A stretch of DNA of 39,469 nt from Solirubrobacterales bacterium (GTDB taxonomy: Bacteria; Actinomycetota; Thermoleophilia; Solirubrobacterales; Solirubrobacteraceae), in assembly GCA_025963905.1 (NCBI GenBank), contig JAOPZW010000037.1, forward strand, positions 1-39,469. The letters run 5' to 3'. Below the pieces are notes generated by a model that saw only the letters and a list, made by a program, of their open reading frames with translations, did no database searches and was not told the origin of the DNA. Positions 16,503 to 25,354 of the stretch are shown here, one piece after another (positions within the stretch are counted from its first letter, which is position 1; each line of letters starts with the position of its first letter). The position numbers were made by a program, and so were the translations under genes.

Positions 16503-16868
16503 TCAGTGGCCCGGATTCAGGACGCCGTGCGGTCCCAGGGGACCGCTCGGGCTGAGGTTCCACGCCGCACACCCGGTCGGCAGGTTGTTGGCGTTGCCGG
16601 TCGGTCCGTACGCGCCGAGCGGTCCGAGCGGACCGGTCGGGCCGAAGTTCAGGAATCCCGGGATCGTCGGGCACAGGTCGTTGGGGATCGTCAGGCTGCC
16701 GGGGCTCGTCAGGGCCGCCGGCAGGGCCGGCATGGCGGGCATGGCCGGCATGGCGGGCATGGCCGGCATGGCGGGCGCCTGGGCGCCCGCGCCGGCGACA
16801 GGCGCGGCGACGGCCAGCGCGGCAAGGGCGGCAGCCACGCCGGCGGAGCGCTGTCTCAGGGACAACAT
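16503..16868 (-). CDS. Small secreted protein with GPxGPxG motifs
   Basis: The protein has 121 residues. ATG at 16868 has AAAGGAG 9 bases upstream; the earlier ATG at 16877 is too close to that site. The signal peptide is RQRSAGVAAALAALAVAAPVAGAGAQ. Then comes an expanded MPA tripeptide repeat (six or so copies, encoded by an 18-bp DNA repeat), followed by a domain where two Cys (LCPTIPG and TGCAAW) flank GPTGPLGPLGAYGPTG. It ends SGPLGPHGVLNPGH. The Cys-GlyPro-Cys arrangement recurs in the protein at 18080-18430. No enzyme motif is present. Probably an exported envelope or extracellular protein. It converges on the PHA-synthase-like gene and is divergent from the collagen-like protein at 17151. 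Confidence 0.75.
   Translation of the reverse strand: MLSLRQRSAGVAAALAALAVAAPVAGAGAQAPAMPAMPAMPAMPAMPALPAALTSPGSLTIPNDLCPTIPGFLNFGPTGPLGPLGAYGPTGNANNLPTGCAAWNLSPSGPLGPHGVLNPGH
16727..16776 (-). repeat. 18-bp tandem repeat, 2.8 copies
   Basis: On the plus strand the unit is CCGGCATGGCGGGCATGG, present twice in full and once in part. It encodes the alternating Met-Pro-Ala tripeptides of the secreted protein. Such in-frame repeats change copy number easily and may vary between strains. Confidence 0.75.
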
Positions 16869-17150
16869 GTGGTCCATCTCCTTTGTGGTCGAGCGGCGGC
16901 TCCGCCCGGGGTTCCACCAAACGATGGACGCCGGCGGCGCCCGGGACCACCCGCCGTCGGGACCGTCCGTCCTGGACCTCGCGCCGGTGTGGTCGGCGCG
17001 TCCGGGGACCGGTGACCGGGCGCTCTCTGGCAAGAGGGGCAGTTCCGGGGCGCGCCACCGGGGGGCAGGGTGTCGCGTGCCGCCCGGGCTCCGCTTTGCC
17101 CGGGCGCGATGCATCCCATCCGATCCGCCCGGTCCGTCGAAAGGATCCTC

Positions 17151-17891
17151 ATGCACCGCAGGTTCATCGCCCATGTCAAGCACAACGTCGTGGGCTACAT
17201 CGCGCTCTTCGCCGCCCTGGGAGGCACGTCCTATGCGGCGGTCAGCCTCACCCCCGGCAGCGTCACCAACCGCGCACTCGCTCGCGGCGCCGTCACCCAC
17301 ACCAAGCTCGCGGCGAACAGCGTCGACGGAGCGAACATCGTCAACGGTACCGTCACCAAGGCCGACCTCGCCGCGGGAACGCTCGCCGACCTGGCGAACG
17401 GCTCCAAGGGAGCGGCCGGGGGCAAGGCGGGTCGCGACGCGACGGGTCCGGCCGGTCCGGTCGGGCCGGCGGGTCGCGCCGGCGCCGACGGCAGCGCTTC
17501 GATCATCGCGCGCGCGCGCGCGACCGCGTCGGTCACGGCACCGCACGGAGCCACGACGAGCGTTCCCGTCGACAGCGGGACGTGGAACCAGGACCCCGGT
17601 GACGTCGACCTGGTGACCGGCAGCGTGACGATCAAGACGCCTTCGGCCTGCACCGGGTCGTTCGGCAACTCCCTCATCCTCCAGGTCGACGGCGCTCCCG
17701 CGACCTTCGCCGTGGCGCCGACGGCGCCGCCGTCCGGCACCGTGTCGATGCCGATCGCCGTCATGGCGGTCATGGAGCCCTCGAGCTCCACGACGCATCA
17801 CCTCACGGCGTCGCTCGCCAATTCGTGCACCAAGGCCGGCGAGGACTTCGGGATCAGCGACCTCAAGGTCGACATCGTGAAGTTCCACTGA
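17151..17891 (+). CDS. Secreted protein with collagen-like segment
   Basis: The protein has 246 residues from ATG 17151, with AAAGGA 6 bases upstream. The N-terminus HVKHNVVGYIALFAALGGTSYA is a distinctive membrane-targeting segment that I associate with exported proteins of Solirubrobacterales relatives. Next come SVTNRALARGAV, THTKLAANSV and VNGTVTKADLA, short repeated units of a beta-solenoid-like type. A Gly-X-Y stretch (GPAGPVGPAGRAGADG) follows near residues 128-145. The C-terminal 100 residues are Ser/Thr/Val-rich with two Cys (SACTGSFG and NSCTKAG) and look like a beta-sandwich. No catalytic motif. Likely a surface or matrix protein. A longer frame starting at 17070 lacks support. Confidence 0.8.
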   Translation: MHRRFIAHVKHNVVGYIALFAALGGTSYAAVSLTPGSVTNRALARGAVTHTKLAANSVDGANIVNGTVTKADLAAGTLADLANGSKGAAGGKAGRDATGPAGPVGPAGRAGADGSASIIARARATASVTAPHGATTSVPVDSGTWNQDPGDVDLVTGSVTIKTPSACTGSFGNSLILQVDGAPATFAVAPTAPPSGTVSMPIAVMAVMEPSSSTTHHLTASLANSCTKAGEDFGISDLKVDIVKFH

Positions 17892-18079
17892 GGATCCTGC
17901 CACAGGGTCAGTCGAGATCGGCTCGCAGACCAGGTCCGGCGGCGGTCTCCACAGCGGACGATCTGATCATGAAGTGCACGACCGACAACCCTCGGGGCGG
18001 CGCAGAGCACGAGTGCGCGCGGAGATCGAATGTTCGGCGGCAGCCCCGACCGCCGTGCACCAGGAGGTTCGTCACCCCC

Positions 18080-18430
18080 ATGTTCATCGCAAAGCGTCTC
18101 ACCGCTATGGCGGCCGTCATCGGCGTCGTGGCGGTAGGCGCTCCAGTCGCCGCCGCAAGCGCCGCCGGACCGCTGGCGGGGCTCGGCCAGCTCACGCCCG
18201 GTGGCGGCAACTCGGCCGACGTCTGCCTCAACGGCGTCGTCGACCCCGGCCCGCTCGGCCCAAGCGGTCCCTACGGCGTCGACGGGCCGTGGGGGGCCAA
18301 CGGTCCGATGCACAGCTCCCCCAACCCCCTAGGAAACGTCGCCGGCTGCGGTGGAGGACTCGCCTTCGTGCTACGAGGCGGGACGGTCGCCTCGTACGTC
18401 CAGGCGAACCTCGCGTCCGTCGGGCGGTGA
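18080..18430 (+). CDS. Small secreted protein with GPxGPxG motifs
   Basis: The protein has 116 residues; CAGGAGG at 18061-18067 lies 12 bases before the ATG. The signal peptide is AKRLTAMAAVIGVVAVGAPVAAASAA. The mature part has two Cys (DVCLNG and AGCGGG) enclosing GPLGPSGPYGVDGPWGANGP, the same layout as the product of 16503-16868. The C-terminal 25 residues (FVLRGGTVASYVQANLASV) differ. No known domain. With its two relatives it suggests a family of small exported Gly/Pro proteins, possibly with a disulfide-closed loop. A 12-bp terminator hairpin lies 55 bases downstream. Confidence 0.72.
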   Translation: MFIAKRLTAMAAVIGVVAVGAPVAAASAAGPLAGLGQLTPGGGNSADVCLNGVVDPGPLGPSGPYGVDGPWGANGPMHSSPNPLGNVAGCGGGLAFVLRGGTVASYVQANLASVGR

Positions 18431-19643: not shown

Positions 19644-21071
19644 TCAGCGGCCGTTGATGCGGAGCTCCAGGATGAACCGCGCACCGCCCTGCGGGGAGTC
19701 CTCCGCCCAGACGCCGCCGCCGTGCGCCACGGCGATCACCTTGACGATCGACAGGCCGAGACCCGCCCCGCCGCCGTCGCGTGCGCGGCTGGCGTCGAGG
19801 CGCGCGAAGCGGTCGAAGATACGGCCGCGCGCGCCGGCCGGGATGCCCGGGCCGTCGTCGTCGACGATGAGGCGCACGCGCTCGCCGCGGGCCTCGGCGC
19901 TCAGCCGCGCCAGCCCTCCGGGCTCGACGTGGGCGATGGCGTTGCTGAGCAGGTTGCGCAGCGCCTGCGCCATGCGATCGGGGTCGGCGTCCAGCACGAT
20001 GGGCGGGATCGCGCCGAGCTCCAGCCGCCGGTCGGCGACCGTCGGGCGCATGCTGTCCGCGATGCCGCGCAGGAACTCGGGGAGGTCGATCGGCTCCGGG
20101 CGCAGGAAGCCGTCCTCACCGGCGTGGGTCAGGAGCAGCAGATCCTCGACCAGCCGCGCCATCCGGTCGATCTCGGTGCGCACGACGCCCTCGACGTGGC
20201 GGATCTCCTGGCGGCTGGGGTGGTCGCTCATCGCCAGGACCTCGAGCTGTCCGCGCGCGATCGTCAACGGCGTGCGCAGCTCGTGTGAGGCATCGGCCAC
20301 GAACGCGTTCTGCCGGGCGAACGCGCCCTCGAGGCGCTCGAGCATCTGATCGAAGGAGTGCGCGAGCACGCGGACCTCGTCGTGCGGGCCGCCGAGCTCC
20401 ATGCGCGGGGTGAGGTCCCCCGCGTCCACGCGCGCCGCCACCCGCGCCATGCGGCGCAACGGCGCGGAGATGCGCGATGCCACGAGGAGGCCCCCGCCCA
20501 GCGCGGCGAGCATGCCGAGCGCGCCGGCGAGCAGGAAGGCGTTCTTGACCGTGCTCTCGGCACGCTCGGCGGGACCGGTCGGCTCGGCGACGCCGAAGCG
20601 CGCGGTCCCGCCCGCGGTGGGCACGTCGGTCACGAGCAGGCGGACCGGGCCGACGCCGGGAAGCACCCGCTTGCTGAGGCCGGCGGGCGCGCCGAGCACC
20701 GCGCGCGCGTCCTCGGCCTCCTCGTGGAGCTGGGCGGGTGAATCGTCGGAGTCGGCGGCGGTGTTCAGCAGCTCCGGCTCGTTGGTGATCGGCGTGCCCC
20801 CCGGCGGCGTGACGAACAGCACGTGCCTGGTCGCCCGCAGCCCCTGGCGCGCGATGTAGTCGCGCGCGGCGCGCTCGATCTGGGCCGACGACCGCGCGGG
20901 GACGGCTGCTCGCATCGCGGCCATATCCTCGTGGAGGCCGTGATCGGTGCTGTCGCCCAGCCGCGTGGCGGTGCCGCGGTAGACCGCGAGGAACCCCGCA
21001 CCGAGGCAGACCGCGACGACGCCGGCGACCAGCAGCGTGATGCGCAGTCGCAGGCCGGCGAGCGAGCTCAC
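19644..21071 (-). CDS. Sensor histidine kinase (OmpR-partner type)
   Basis: The protein has 475 residues. The first membrane helix is at about 8-32 and the second at about 177-200, with a 140-residue periplasmic-side sensor between them. HAMP follows at about 200-250, then the phospho-accepting His263 in ADASHELRTPLT, the N-box Asn373 (LRNLLSNAIAH), DDDGPGI (G1), FDRFARLD (F-box) and GAGLGLSIVK (G2). All catalytic motifs are intact. It autophosphorylates and passes phosphate to the response regulator encoded just upstream, with which it overlaps by 4 bases (GTGA). Position at the end of the ApbE/ferric-reductase/NuoF operon suggests that it senses the redox or envelope state served by those proteins. 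Confidence 0.93.
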   Translation of the reverse strand: MSSLAGLRLRITLLVAGVVAVCLGAGFLAVYRGTATRLGDSTDHGLHEDMAAMRAAVPARSSAQIERAARDYIARQGLRATRHVLFVTPPGGTPITNEPELLNTAADSDDSPAQLHEEAEDARAVLGAPAGLSKRVLPGVGPVRLLVTDVPTAGGTARFGVAEPTGPAERAESTVKNAFLLAGALGMLAALGGGLLVASRISAPLRRMARVAARVDAGDLTPRMELGGPHDEVRVLAHSFDQMLERLEGAFARQNAFVADASHELRTPLTIARGQLEVLAMSDHPSRQEIRHVEGVVRTEIDRMARLVEDLLLLTHAGEDGFLRPEPIDLPEFLRGIADSMRPTVADRRLELGAIPPIVLDADPDRMAQALRNLLSNAIAHVEPGGLARLSAEARGERVRLIVDDDGPGIPAGARGRIFDRFARLDASRARDGGGAGLGLSIVKVIAVAHGGGVWAEDSPQGGARFILELRINGR

Positions 21072-21739
21072 CGAACGGTGAACCGGTAGCCCGCCGACCG
21101 GATGGTGTCGATCGGAACCGGCCGGTCCGGGCGCCCGAGCTTCCTGCGCAGGTACCCGACGTACACCTCTACGACGTTGGTCTGCGGCTCGAAGTCATAG
21201 CCCCAGACGCCGCTGAGCAGCTGCTCGCGCGAGAGCACCTGGTTGGGGTGGCGCATGAAGTGCACCAGCAGCTCGAACTCCTTGGCGGACAGGCGCACCG
21301 ACTCGTCGTCGCGGTGGACCTCGCGCGACAGGAGGTCGACGTCGATCCCCCCCGCGCTCAGGCGCGTGGCTTCCGGCTGCGACGGCCGCCGGAGATGGGC
21401 GCGCACGCGGGCGAGCAGCTCGTCGACCGAGAACGGCTTGGTCACGTAGTCGGTCGCTCCGGCGTCCAGCGCCTCGACCTTCGCGCCGACCTCTCCCAGC
21501 GCGGTCAGCATGATCACCGGCAGGTCAGGCTTGGCCGCCCGGATGCCCCGGAGCACCTCGACGCCCTCCCGGCCGGGGAGGAGGCGGTCGAGCACCACGA
21601 GGTCGACGTCGCTGGTCAGCGCGCGGCGCTCGCCCTCCAGGCCGTCGCAGGACACGTCGACCTGATGGCCTTCGGCGCGCAACGCCTTGCGCACGAACTC
21701 GACGATGCCCGACTCGTCTTCGATCAGCAGGATGCGCAC
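21068..21739 (-). CDS. OmpR-family response regulator
   Basis: The protein has 223 residues from GTG. The receiver domain has acidic residues Glu7/Asp8, phospho-acceptor Asp51 (LVVLDRLLPG), Thr79 and Lys101 (YVTKPF). The winged-helix output domain occupies about 125-223 (LSAKEFELLVHFMRHPNQVLSREQLL and VEVYVGYLRRKL). It is the partner of the downstream histidine kinase. It begins 43 bases after the ferredoxin gene on the same strand, so it is probably cotranscribed with the redox genes. The 11-bp-phased hexamers at 25387-25414, upstream of the operon, are the expected type of binding site for this family. Confidence 0.93.
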   Translation of the reverse strand: MRILLIEDESGIVEFVRKALRAEGHQVDVSCDGLEGERRALTSDVDLVVLDRLLPGREGVEVLRGIRAAKPDLPVIMLTALGEVGAKVEALDAGATDYVTKPFSVDELLARVRAHLRRPSQPEATRLSAGGIDVDLLSREVHRDDESVRLSAKEFELLVHFMRHPNQVLSREQLLSGVWGYDFEPQTNVVEVYVGYLRRKLGRPDRPVPIDTIRSAGYRFTVR

Positions 21740-21782
21740 GCGGGAATCGTAGGCCGATGGTCCCGACGAGACCGCGCTGCGC

Positions 21783-22013
21783 TCAGCCGGCCCGCGCCTG
21801 GCGCAACGCCAGCGCCAGCGCCGGGCAGGCCTTGACGGCGCGCAGCGCGTGCTCGCGCAGGCTCGCCGGGACCTGGGGGTCGATCATCGGGTAGCCCCAG
21901 TCGTCGAGGACGATGCGCTCGGGCAGCAACTCGGCGCACAGCCCATGTCCCGTGCAGGCGATCGGATCGAGCACGAGCTCCTCGCCCGGGGGCGCGGTCG
22001 GCCGGCGGGTCAC
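21783..22013 (-). CDS. Small ferredoxin
   Basis: The protein has 76 residues. The Fe-S ligands are Cys20 and Cys26 (CTGHGLC) and Cys63 followed by Pro (ACPALAL). This C-x5-C...CP pattern with three Cys is that of actinobacterial [3Fe-4S]-type single-cluster ferredoxins, one-electron carriers in the cytoplasm. The GTG start overlaps the stop of the NuoF-like gene (GTGA), so it is coupled to that flavoprotein and is likely its electron acceptor or donor. Confidence 0.88.
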   Translation of the reverse strand: MTRRPTAPPGEELVLDPIACTGHGLCAELLPERIVLDDWGYPMIDPQVPASLREHALRAVKACPALALALRQARAG

Positions 22014-23254
22014 GCGGCCGCCCTCGCACGGCTCGGGCCGGGAAGGACCAGCGTCGCGGGGGCGGCGCACCCGGAGCACGCCCCGTGGTGCGCGTGCTCC
22101 TCGAGCTCGGTGCGGAACAGCCGGGTCGCGCTGGCCAGCATCCGGGCCACGCCGTCGGGATGGGCGCAGGCGCCGCGGCCGCTGACCATCTCCGTCCAGC
22201 GGACGAGCCGCTCGCCGTCCCCGGGCACGGTCCGCGCGGTCGCGAAGCGGTCCAGCACCCCGGCCAGCGATCCGAGGCCGTGCACGCAGGGGCCGCACTG
22301 GCCGGCGGACTCGCCGGCCATGTACCCGGCCAGGCGGGCCGTCTCGGCCACCGGGCACGCCGAGGCGCCGAGCACCACGATGACCCCGGCGCCGACGGCG
22401 GCGCCGTGGCGGCGCAGGTCAGCATCGTCGAGCGTCATGCCCGCTCCGTCCTCGTCGACCCACGCGCCGAAGTACCCGCCCACGAGCAGGGCGCGCGCCG
22501 GCTCGGTCAGGCCACCCGCGAGGCGCGACAGATCGGCCAGCGGCATGCCGGACGCGACCTCGTAGACGCCCGGCGCCTGGACCGCGCCGGAGATCGTCAC
22601 CAGCGTCGTTCCGGGCCGGTCGCTCGTGCCGCGCTCGCGGAACCACTCCGCGCCGTGCCGGGCGATGAGGCCGATGTGGGCGAGCGTCTCGACGTTCTGC
22701 ACCAGGGTGGGACGCTTGCGATAGCCCTGCTGCGCGGGGCGCGGCGGGGTCACGCGCGGGCGCGGGGCGCGGCCCTCCAGGTGCGCGATCACCGCGGTCT
22801 CCTCGCCGGCGACGTATCCCGGGGCGCTCTCCAGCACGGTCACGCGGGGCTCCCGGCGGGAGCCGGCGGCGCGCTCGGCCAGCGCGGCGGCGACGACCGC
22901 GTTGGCCTGGGGCGAAGCGCAGAACAGCACCTCGTGGGCGCCCACGGCCCGGGCGGCGGCCAGAGCGCCGTCGAGCACGAGGTGGGGCGTGCGGCGCAGC
23001 AGCGAGCGGTCCTTGGCGCTCATCGGCTCGCCCTCGGTCCCGTTGACGATGACCACCGGGCGGCGGCCCTCGGCGACGGCGGCCAGCTTGATCCCGGCGG
23101 GGAAGCCGGCGCCGCCGCGGCCACGCAGCCCCGCGCGGGTGACCTCGCGGACGAGCTCGGACGTGACGTCGGGCATCGGGCCGTGCACGGCCAGATGCCG
23201 GCCCAGGCCGACGGGGTTGCGGCCCGCGAGGCCGGCGAGGAGGCGATCGCTCAT
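22010..23254 (-). CDS. NuoF-like FMN/Fe-S NADH-oxidising subunit
   Basis: The protein has 414 residues. The FMN/NADH-binding core of the 51-kDa complex I subunit is evident: RGRGGAGFPAGIK (44-56), NGTEGEPMSAKDR (71-83), YVAGEETAVI, RPTLVQNVET and a SLBB-like region (ISGAVQAPGVYEV). The Fe-S region reads ESAGQCGPC (315-323): two of the three clustered Cys are present but the first is Ala317; Cys363 (GACAHPDG) is the distant ligand. Extra Cys are at 300 and in a C-terminal CSGC. It probably oxidises NADH and passes electrons to the adjacent ferredoxin or membrane haem protein rather than being part of complex I, since no other nuo genes are here. ATG 23254 overlaps the stop of the membrane protein gene. 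Confidence 0.88.
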   Translation of the reverse strand: MSDRLLAGLAGRNPVGLGRHLAVHGPMPDVTSELVREVTRAGLRGRGGAGFPAGIKLAAVAEGRRPVVIVNGTEGEPMSAKDRSLLRRTPHLVLDGALAAARAVGAHEVLFCASPQANAVVAAALAERAAGSRREPRVTVLESAPGYVAGEETAVIAHLEGRAPRPRVTPPRPAQQGYRKRPTLVQNVETLAHIGLIARHGAEWFRERGTSDRPGTTLVTISGAVQAPGVYEVASGMPLADLSRLAGGLTEPARALLVGGYFGAWVDEDGAGMTLDDADLRRHGAAVGAGVIVVLGASACPVAETARLAGYMAGESAGQCGPCVHGLGSLAGVLDRFATARTVPGDGERLVRWTEMVSGRGACAHPDGVARMLASATRLFRTELEEHAHHGACSGCAAPATLVLPGPSRARAAA

Positions 23255-23934
23255 CGATGACTCCGCGCGGTCGTGGCGGCCTTCGCGCCGAGGATGCTCG
23301 GCGGCGTCCCCGCCTTGGCGGCCCAGCCGCCTGCCAGTGGCCCCGACGGCAGCCAGATCGCGAGCGCGATGACGCCGGCGGCCACGGTCGCGGCCGCGCC
23401 GGCGCGCACGCGGATCGCCGTTCCGCGGTCGGCCAACCGCACGCCCACCGCGACGATGACGACCGCCGTGCAGCCCAGGCTCAGCCACGTCAGCCAGCCG
23501 GGGCGCACGTCGCTGCCGGTGCCCAGGCCGTGGACCAGCGCCACCGGCCAGCAGGCGTAGGCCAGCCAGTGCACCGCGCGCCAGGCGCGCAGGCCGAGCC
23601 GCGCGCGCAGCAGGCTCGTGACGATCAGGGCGATCAGGAGGTCGAGCGCCAGCGCGCCGAGCCCGAGCCACACGGGGCGATACGTCCCGCCGAAGGGGAC
23701 GAACGCATCGACCAGGCGGATCGGGGCGTAGCCGTCGAGCACCGTCGTCCCGACGTGCACGGCCAGCAGGACGCACACCAGCAGGGATGTCGTCCGGTGC
23801 CAGCCGTCGACGGCGAAGCGCGGCACCAGCCGCGACGCGTAGCGCTGCACGTTGACCACGCCCAGCGTGAGCGACAGCGTGAGCAGGACGAGCGCCGCTG
23901 CGCCGGTGCCGCGTGTGAGGTACCAGAGCGCCAT
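23251..23934 (-). CDS. Ferric-reductase-like transmembrane haem protein
   Basis: The protein has 227 residues with about six membrane helices. Two pairs of His, His46/His60 (GWHRTTSLLVCVLLAVH) and His122/His135 (VHWLAYACWPVALVH), are spaced to bind two stacked haems, as in the ferric reductase/MsrQ/NOX transmembrane superfamily. There is no cytoplasmic flavin domain, so electrons must come from a separate protein, here plausibly the NuoF-like subunit and ferredoxin. The ATG shares one base with the stop of the apbE gene (TGATG). An upstream extension to 24024 lies within apbE and is rejected. Likely role: moving electrons across the membrane to an external flavin or acceptor. Confidence 0.88.
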   Translation of the reverse strand: MALWYLTRGTGAAALVLLTLSLTLGVVNVQRYASRLVPRFAVDGWHRTTSLLVCVLLAVHVGTTVLDGYAPIRLVDAFVPFGGTYRPVWLGLGALALDLLIALIVTSLLRARLGLRAWRAVHWLAYACWPVALVHGLGTGSDVRPGWLTWLSLGCTAVVIVAVGVRLADRGTAIRVRAGAAATVAAGVIALAIWLPSGPLAGGWAAKAGTPPSILGAKAATTARSHR

Positions 23935-24851
23935 CAGGCCGTCACCGCCACCGGAGCCCAGCCGCACGTCCCGACGACCGCGCCGTCGTGGCGAACCAGC
24001 CGGGCGGGGAGGCCCCTGCGCCACAGCCAGGCGGGGGCGGTGGCGCCCAGCACGATCGCCGCGGTGCTCGCGGTGTTGGCCTCCACGCAGCTCGCGGCAG
24101 CGACGCTGACCGTTCGCCAGATCACCGGGACGGGAGCTCCCGTGCGCGGATCGAGGATGTGATGGACCTCGCGCCCGCCCCGGCGCCAGCGGCGCTGCGT
24201 CGTGCTGGAGGTCGCCAGGCCGCCGCCCCGGAGCGCCACCGTGGTGGCGACGTCGCCGTCGCGGTGGCCGTCGGCGATGCCGACCGGCCAGCCCTCGGCC
24301 GGAACCGGTCCGGCGACCGCCAGGTCGCCGCCGAGGCTGACGAGGACGCCGTGCGGCGCGATCGCGAAGGCGGCCGCGGTGGCGGCGCGGTCGGCGGCGA
24401 GCGCCTTGGCCGTGGCGCCGAGATCCAGGCGCACGCCGGCCGGGACGGCGATGGTGCCCGCCTCGCGGTCGACGCGCACCGTGCGCCAGCCCGCCGCGGG
24501 GACGAAGGTGCGCGCCGTCGCGTCGGCCGGCAGCGCGGCGAAGTCGCGGTCGTAGCCGGCGCGGATCACGGCCGCGCCGATCGTCGGGTCAACGCGCCCT
24601 TCGGAGCTGCGGGCCGCGTCCAGCGCGACCTCGATGGCCTCCAGCAGCAGCGGGCTCACCGGCACCGGCGCGCCGGCGGCGGCGTGGACGCGCGCGATCT
24701 CGGCATCCTCGCGAAAGCGACTGCAGGCGAGGTCGATCGCCGCCAGCTCCTGCTCGACGGCGTGCCGCGCGGCCGGGAGCGCGTCATGCTCGGTCACGAC
24801 GACCTGCGCGGTCGTCCCGAGCGCCCCCCACGTCGCGACCGCCGGGCTCAC
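23934..24851 (-). CDS. apbE: ApbE-family FAD:protein FMN transferase
   Basis: The protein has 305 residues. The family attaches FMN to Thr or Ser of extracytoplasmic redox proteins. Conserved segments are ACSRFREDAEIARVHA, VDPTIGAAVIRAGYDRDF, LDLGATAKALAADRA, VSLGGDLAVAG, and HHILDPRTGAPV with the C-terminal metal-site region. No signal peptide is obvious, so the location is uncertain; many ApbE proteins work outside the membrane. GTG overlaps the stop of the upstream gene (GTGA), and its own stop touches the ferric-reductase-like gene. A flavinylated substrate with a classical FMN-binding domain is not encoded in the window, which makes the upstream anchored protein of interest. Confidence 0.9.
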   Translation of the reverse strand: MSPAVATWGALGTTAQVVVTEHDALPAARHAVEQELAAIDLACSRFREDAEIARVHAAAGAPVPVSPLLLEAIEVALDAARSSEGRVDPTIGAAVIRAGYDRDFAALPADATARTFVPAAGWRTVRVDREAGTIAVPAGVRLDLGATAKALAADRAATAAAFAIAPHGVLVSLGGDLAVAGPVPAEGWPVGIADGHRDGDVATTVALRGGGLATSSTTQRRWRRGGREVHHILDPRTGAPVPVIWRTVSVAAASCVEANTASTAAIVLGATAPAWLWRRGLPARLVRHDGAVVGTCGWAPVAVTA

Positions 24852-25354
24852 GAGCCGCCCGAGGTGACGACGGGTGCCTGCTGCGTCGGAGCGGGTGCGG
24901 CCGCGACCGGGGCCGGGGCGGCGGTGACCTGCGTGCTGGTTGCCTGCGACGCCGAGGTCCCGGAGGACGACGTCCCGGCCGAGCCGGAGCTCGAGCTGCC
25001 GGCGGCTGGCGCGGCGGGGGTCGACGAGGCCGGGGTCGACGAGGCGGCGGCCGACGAGGCCGCGGTGTGGTGGCGCTTGTGGTGCACCACGGTCTTGTGG
25101 GCGCTCGCCGTCGAGCCGGTCGTGCTCGCCGTGGAGCCGGTCGTGCTCGCCGTGGTGGCGGTCGTAGCCGTGGCCGCGGTGCTGGTCGCGCCCGGCGCCG
25201 AGGCCTGAGCCGCCAGGGTCGCAAAGCCGGCGGCCATGACCGCCGAGCCGCCGGCCACCAACCGATTGATCCGCGACACGCGCCGCACCGCGGCGTCGCG
25301 GGTCTGCGCGGCGGCGGATCCGCGTGTGGGATCAGGTTGCGTATGCAAGCTCAT
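24848..25354 (-). CDS. Membrane-anchored Ser/Thr/Ala-rich protein, first gene of redox operon
   Basis: The protein has 168 residues. A cytoplasmic Arg-rich start (RDAAVRRVSRINR) precedes one hydrophobic helix (VAGGSAVMAAGFATLAAQA, about 33-51); the rest is a Thr/Ser/Ala-rich stretch, with two SSTP-type repeats, a basic HKTVVHHKRHH patch and a Pro/Ala/Gln tail. It is probably an extended exported tail. Just after the helix is APGATSTAAT, which resembles part of the GAT-containing flavinylation motif used by ApbE, though the preceding acidic or Ser position is not canonical. It begins the seven-gene operon and overlaps apbE by 4 bases. It may be the external flavin carrier or a scaffold; this is inference. 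No ribosome site is evident before the ATG. Confidence 0.75.
   Translation of the reverse strand: MSLHTQPDPTRGSAAAQTRDAAVRRVSRINRLVAGGSAVMAAGFATLAAQASAPGATSTAATATTATTASTTGSTASTTGSTASAHKTVVHHKRHHTAASSAAASSTPASSTPAAPAAGSSSSGSAGTSSSGTSASQATSTQVTAAPAPVAAAPAPTQQAPVVTSGGS

Follow-up and report, generated by a model that had tools for sequence, protein, structure and literature searches.

Thirty-one MsrQ-like flavinylation clusters that contain a NuoF-like PF10589 protein have been reported (Meheust et al. 2021, eLife, PMC8238504). The same study found apbE without a recognized substrate in about 4% of genomes, and unidentified ApbE substrates remain (PMC8238504). Apart from FMN_bind proteins, the described substrates are DUF2271 and DUF3570 proteins (PMC8238504), together with Flavodoxin_4 proteins and FMN_red proteins with a C-terminal extension (PMC11334425). 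The established ApbE site reads D-x-x-[S/T]-G-A-[S/T]; this seven-residue motif suffices at a terminus, the termini work best, and in fumarate reductase of K. pneumoniae little was lost when its Asp was changed to Ala (PMC12052999). Here we analyzed a seven-gene array (19644..25354, minus strand) in a 39,469-nucleotide stretch of DNA from a Solirubrobacterales bacterium (contig JAOPZW010000037.1, assembly GCA_025963905.1), the whole of which we call the window. We consider it reasonably probable that this locus is an MsrQ-like flavinylation cluster in which a disordered, membrane-anchored tail protein replaces the FMN_bind protein, and in which the adjacent ApbE attaches flavin to the C-terminal Ser of that tail (TSGGS, directly before the stop codon).

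The tail protein (24848..25354, minus strand) has 168 residues and no Pfam or NCBIfam match. A basic N terminus is followed by one membrane anchor (residues 32 to 51; 25202..25261, minus strand) and a tail of about 117 residues made largely of Ala, Ser, Thr and Pro, which is predicted to lie outside given the basic residues ahead of the anchor. The protein ends in PVVTSGGS, and Ser168, the last residue encoded by the SGGS codons (24851..24862, minus strand), is the proposed site of flavin attachment. The [S/T]-x-x-S at this extreme C terminus resembles the ApbE motif [S/T]GA[S/T], and the last seven residues, VVTSGGS, hold the core [S/T]-G-x-[S/T] with Gly in place of Ala. In the window and in relatives the stop of the tail gene overlaps or abuts the start of the gene for ApbE, here a 305-residue FAD:protein flavin mononucleotide (FMN) transferase-like protein (23934..24851, minus strand; PF02424, 5.7e-54). 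A profile search found no FMN_bind (PF04205) protein encoded on the window contig; with the tail as the likely ApbE substrate, the picture drawn by an earlier, sequence-only reading of this DNA, which suggested a complete electron chain from reduced nicotinamide adenine dinucleotide (NADH) to the envelope, changes.

Support for the tail as substrate comes from the recurrence of its ending. We surveyed 61 related genomes and a phylum-wide sample of Actinomycetota for ApbE loci; loci L121-L227, from the related genomes and the phylum-wide sample, were sorted by their neighbors, and the upstream low-complexity protein was taken as the tail candidate by position and composition only, blind to its ending. 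Such a candidate was present at 66 of the 73 loci that have ApbE and the haem protein without FMN_bind. Fifty of the 66 end in [S/T]xxS, against 3.6 expected from composition (P=4e-61, kinship of genomes ignored). The consensus is [S/T]-[S/G/R]-[G/A]-S: the last Ser is found in 50 of 66, and every one of these 50 has Ser or Thr at position -4. Six more loci have a motif-bearing tail that lies elsewhere in the cluster or was missed by the coding filter, and at about eight the motif stands a few residues ahead of the C terminus (VTGASGAIP, KTSGSR, STGGSAPPP). None of the 11 loci with both ApbE and FMN_bind has a tail protein. Among tail-like genes away from ApbE, examined as a control, 10 of 127 match the motif, a figure mixed with displaced tails of the same clusters, with about three as true background. 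Among 20 NuoF-like loci fetched later, seven have ApbE, with four tails ending in [S/T]GGS and three of the PSG kind described below; a further three tails, without a detected ApbE, end in TGGS or SRGS.

The ending also co-varies with the type of ApbE. The 76 ApbE proteins of this group fall into three types by the residue at the catalytic Asp site, which is Glu in 49, Asn in 18 and Asp in 9. Of 17 tails paired with the Asn type, to which the window ApbE belongs, 15 contain Gly; the Glu type goes with tails of the TRAS and TSQS kinds, and only 10 of its 39 tails contain Gly (Fisher P=2e-5, kinship of genomes ignored). Among family orthologues with a complete gene, the tail varies freely and is rich in Ala, Ser, Thr, Pro and Gln, yet its ending is SGGS or SGAS, with TRVS in L035 alone; tails of remoter relatives end in TGGS or SGGS. 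The tail gene precedes that for ApbE in these orthologues, except in L039, where it precedes the haem protein gene. The plan of a basic stretch followed by an anchor is also found in relatives: a clear membrane segment follows the basic stretch in 48 of 58 motif-matching proteins, and most tails are 50 to 130 residues long. Two or three of these proteins have lipoprotein-like N termini on inspection, which would likewise place the tail outside. The literature searched, with paper supplements outside its reach, contained no prior description of this C-terminal tail; the tails are a widespread class of disordered proteins, anchored in the membrane, that appears to be undescribed.

Some clusters depart from this arrangement. 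In one actinobacterial lineage (L235, L236, L237, L193, L197, L206) the tail ends in Cys...PSG-x3-Cys-[Y/D/S] and not in [S/T]-x-[G/A]-S, which is perhaps a disulfide-closed variant. L138, L139 and L127 apparently encode two tail proteins per cluster with differing endings (e.g., TSGAS and TRAS). The protein ahead of ApbE in L121, L172 and L174 is lipoprotein-like with a folded-looking part and ends in SRHS, SGQS or SDAS. A second anchored low-complexity protein often stands ahead of the tail gene (L127, L133, L136, L141, L180, L182); its C terminus is strongly acidic, as in EHEHEGHDD or REDDGEDD, and it possibly binds metal. We had considered that the L035 tail (VTRVS), which has no apbE nearby, reflected co-loss, but this was dropped given that TRxS tails are common and that an ApbE is encoded elsewhere in the genome of L035.

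Several observations weigh against flavinylation of the tail. The window tail lacks the Asp that opens the described ApbE motif, the motif Gly is missing in many tail relatives, and about 15 loci lack the [S/T]xxS ending, some carrying the motif slightly earlier and one family ending in PSGx3C[Y/D/S]. The window ApbE has Asn259 (24075..24077, minus strand) at the position equivalent to Asp285 of V. cholerae ApbE, a member of the Asp-Ser-His catalytic triad (PMC12052999), and the commoner subtype in its group has Glu there; with the catalytic Asp replaced, activity of the enzyme cannot be taken for granted. The start codon of the ApbE gene shares bases with the stop codon of the tail gene, and none lies further upstream in its reading frame; the enzyme therefore has no signal peptide. 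With the tail outside, flavin would need to be attached ahead of export, and a site at the C terminus could be reached while export of the chain is still under way. Finally, three FMN_bind genes lie on other contigs of the source genome, which the window ApbE might serve, and one of them adjoins its own ApbE and ferric-reductase gene.

These three genes would fit an ordinary MsrQ-like cluster, in which ApbE serves FMN_bind proteins encoded elsewhere and the tail stays unmodified and works as a spacer or in assembly; low-complexity wall-spanning proteins are generally known to be common in actinobacteria. We judge this explanation unlikely, given that FMN_bind, DUF2271 and DUF3570 genes are all missing from most cluster-bearing relatives. 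Across 61 same-order genomes, ApbE was found in 33 versus FMN_bind in 5, and DUF2271 and DUF3570 in none, so that most of these are orphan ApbE proteins in the sense of PMC8238504. Moreover, a spacer would not be expected to keep just its last four residues amid free variation, nor to co-vary with the ApbE subtype.

The altered triad allows another explanation, that the ApbE-like protein changed function with the replacement of Asp by Asn or Glu and now transfers a different group or does no more than bind flavin, in which case [S/T]xxS would be a different modification site or a docking motif. The catalytic Asp is replaced in 67 of the 76 proteins of the group, and the motif Gly is often replaced in Glu-type clusters, as this explanation would have it. 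However, the group retains Ser and His of the triad, together with the DPxTG loop, DLGxxAK and GGD, and the cluster context is one of electron transfer with a two-haem protein, which makes a change of function quite improbable in our view. In the window ApbE, whose best Protein Data Bank (PDB) relative is 1vrm (2.2e-24), an alignment to TM1553 shows the triad Ser and His conserved.

The genes downstream of ApbE encode candidate parts of the electron path. The sequence-only reading had proposed a two-haem, ferric-reductase-like membrane protein, and our analysis agrees: the 227-residue MsrQ-like protein (23251..23934, minus strand) matches Ferric_reduct above cut-off (PF01794, 1.1e-7), and its two predicted b-haem sites, His46/His60 and His122/His135, fall in columns that are invariant in 11 homologues. 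The orthologous haem proteins of L031, L037, L039, L040 and L123 continue into a further C-terminal domain, about 120 residues long and marked by a conserved GGxxMxxSxVTLG-like stretch; the window protein has no such domain. Checked as FMN_bind-like, this domain (...SAVTLG...) had no Pfam match. The 414-residue NuoF-like NADH/FMN/iron-sulfur (Fe-S) protein (22010..23254, minus strand) has its FMN/NADH (Complex1_51K), SLBB and NADH_4Fe-4S domains all present (PF10589, 3.8e-17), and a structure model of it is similar in fold to complex I and HydB (template modelling score 0.8-0.87; predicted local distance difference test score 85). The ESAGQC motif reported earlier is present and marks a subfamily: at the N3-type cluster site (SAGQCGPC, residues 316 to 323; 22286..22309, minus strand) the first Cys is Ala, Ser or Thr in orthologues while Cys320, Cys323 and Cys363 are kept, unlike at two loci of complex-I type, which retain ESCG. 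With one ligand lost and three kept, the cluster may be three-iron or use another ligand. The small, single-cluster ferredoxin (21783..22013, minus strand; 76 residues, Fer4_15; PDB relatives 4id8 and 8amp) reads Cys20-x2-His23-x2-Cys26...Cys63-Pro, with three Cys and a non-Cys second position. CxxHxxC...CP ferredoxins are of the [3Fe-4S] kind, and the window protein is predicted to belong to this type.

The last two genes encode an OmpR-type response regulator (21068..21739, minus strand; Response_reg and Trans_reg_C) and a sensor histidine kinase (19644..21071, minus strand; HAMP, HisKA and HATPase_c). The gene order on a single strand claimed for the array agrees with our coordinates exactly, as do its junctions, five of which overlap (by 4, 1, 4, 4 and 4 bases) while the sixth, between the ferredoxin and the regulator, is a 43-base gap (21740-21782). 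Beyond the array, the window also has adjoining genes for small secreted proteins of low complexity that carry GPLGPxGxYG-type repeats and a PAMPAMPAM repeat (16503-18430); one GPLGPxGxYG-type example (17945-18430, plus strand) has no Pfam match.

NuoF-like orthologues were found at about 44-61% identity in the 61 related genomes and in a scan of named genomes, and the core of tail, ApbE, haem protein, NuoF and ferredoxin recurs across Actinomycetota, with 30 loci having both the NuoF-like and ApbE genes. The haem protein gene is present at all 30, the ferredoxin gene at 28 (the other two are contig ends) and the tail gene at 29 (the other is a contig end), in mostly tightly overlapping arrays. 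Homologous loci where these genes do not occur together were looked for, and across the 30 loci the five-gene core stays joined; the order is not chance. The two-component system is a genuine recurring neighbor, with its genes near 23 of the 30 loci but on the opposite strand in about nine of these. It is thus frequent but movable, and the window's precise order of seven genes, all in one direction, is not a constant of these loci. In L036 (4176-4955), L038 (4594-5322) and L035 (10120-10923), an additional multi-helix, cytochrome-b-like membrane protein with paired His separates the two-component genes from the tail gene. The source genome has a second copy of the cluster, apparently split over two contigs, with a tail ending in PPVSGGS plus the N-terminal half of ApbE on C180, and the second half of ApbE, the haem protein, NuoF and ferredoxin on C104.

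The NuoF-like subfamily occurs in about one-tenth of sampled Actinomycetota genomes (matches with E below 1e-99), and in some Streptomyces- and mycobacterium-like genomes it also occurs without a detected ApbE. In Streptomyces-like L240, L242 and L244-L246, for example, the gene is accompanied by ferredoxin or haem protein with no detected ApbE or tail, as would be expected if NuoF, ferredoxin and haem protein formed an NADH oxidase or a quinone reductase, in the cytosol or the membrane, that delivers electrons to menaquinone, with the tail and ApbE peripheral. We regard this as very unlikely, given that no locus with both the NuoF-like and ApbE genes lacks the haem protein, and the tail is missing only at a contig end, in arrays that mostly overlap tightly.

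Collectively, our findings are consistent with a pathway in which NADH would reduce the FMN and Fe-S centers of the NuoF-like protein, which would pass electrons to the [3Fe-4S] ferredoxin and from there across the membrane via the two b-haems. The adjacent ApbE would attach FMN to Ser168, the b-haems would reduce this terminal FMN, and the FMN-bearing tail, a tethered arm that swings, could carry electrons on to Fe(III), quinones or some other acceptor outside. Expression is probably adjusted by the two-component system. Tail flavinylation, electron path, acceptor and regulation are all inferred from sequence. For the NADH-to-envelope chain as originally proposed, the domains, the conserved haem ligands and the recurrent gene order are in its favor, but the word complete still goes beyond the data and ApbE lacks one catalytic residue. 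We lean, by a narrower measure, towards a phylum-wide generalization: covalent flavoproteins without a folded flavin domain, built as anchored disordered tethers with FMN on a C-terminal Ser, modified by a co-evolving ApbE subfamily without the catalytic Asp and fed as swinging arms by two-haem proteins, which would explain many orphan apbE genes of Actinomycetota. The tails are in any case a concrete candidate substrate class for actinobacterial apbE without a recognized substrate, one that domain searches cannot see, since no more than about four residues are conserved. If flavinylation is correct, covalent flavin in nature requires no folded pocket, electrons from NADH could exit the cell on a swinging arm, a design that carries them off the membrane, and these clusters would provide bioconjugation with flavin tags of natural origin for the C terminus, along with the ApbE enzymes that match them.

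In one related system, described in 2018, the components are Ndh2, quinone and PplA, and the FMN domains are folded. To our knowledge, it has no NuoF-like or b-haem protein. It shares with the window cluster the logic of moving electrons from NADH to an envelope flavin in a monoderm envelope (cited in PMC8238504). The NuoF-containing MsrQ-like clusters have in common with it ApbE, the PF01794 two-haem protein, the PF10589 NADH input and a mostly actinobacterial distribution; an FMN-binding-domain gene is typical of them, though not universal (PMC8238504), whereas the window cluster has an anchored disordered protein in its place, with a C-terminal motif like that for flavinylation, and adds ferredoxin and two-component genes. 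Since 31 NuoF-bearing clusters were already reported, the chain is known in kind, and the novelty is the proposed disordered flavin-bearing tail, not the electron chain. DUF2271, DUF3570, Flavodoxin_4 and FMN_red substrates share with the tail an apbE neighbor and an [S/T]GA[S/T]-like site, and in FMN_red this site is on an unstructured C-terminal extension (PMC11334425), as at the disordered end of the window tail. These substrates have a folded domain, whereas the whole extracytoplasmic part of the window tail is low-complexity and its site is the last residue. The engineered flavin-tag likewise offers ApbE a short terminal peptide, down to seven residues (PMC12052999), but it is artificial, whereas the window tail is natural and has a variant motif and a variant ApbE.

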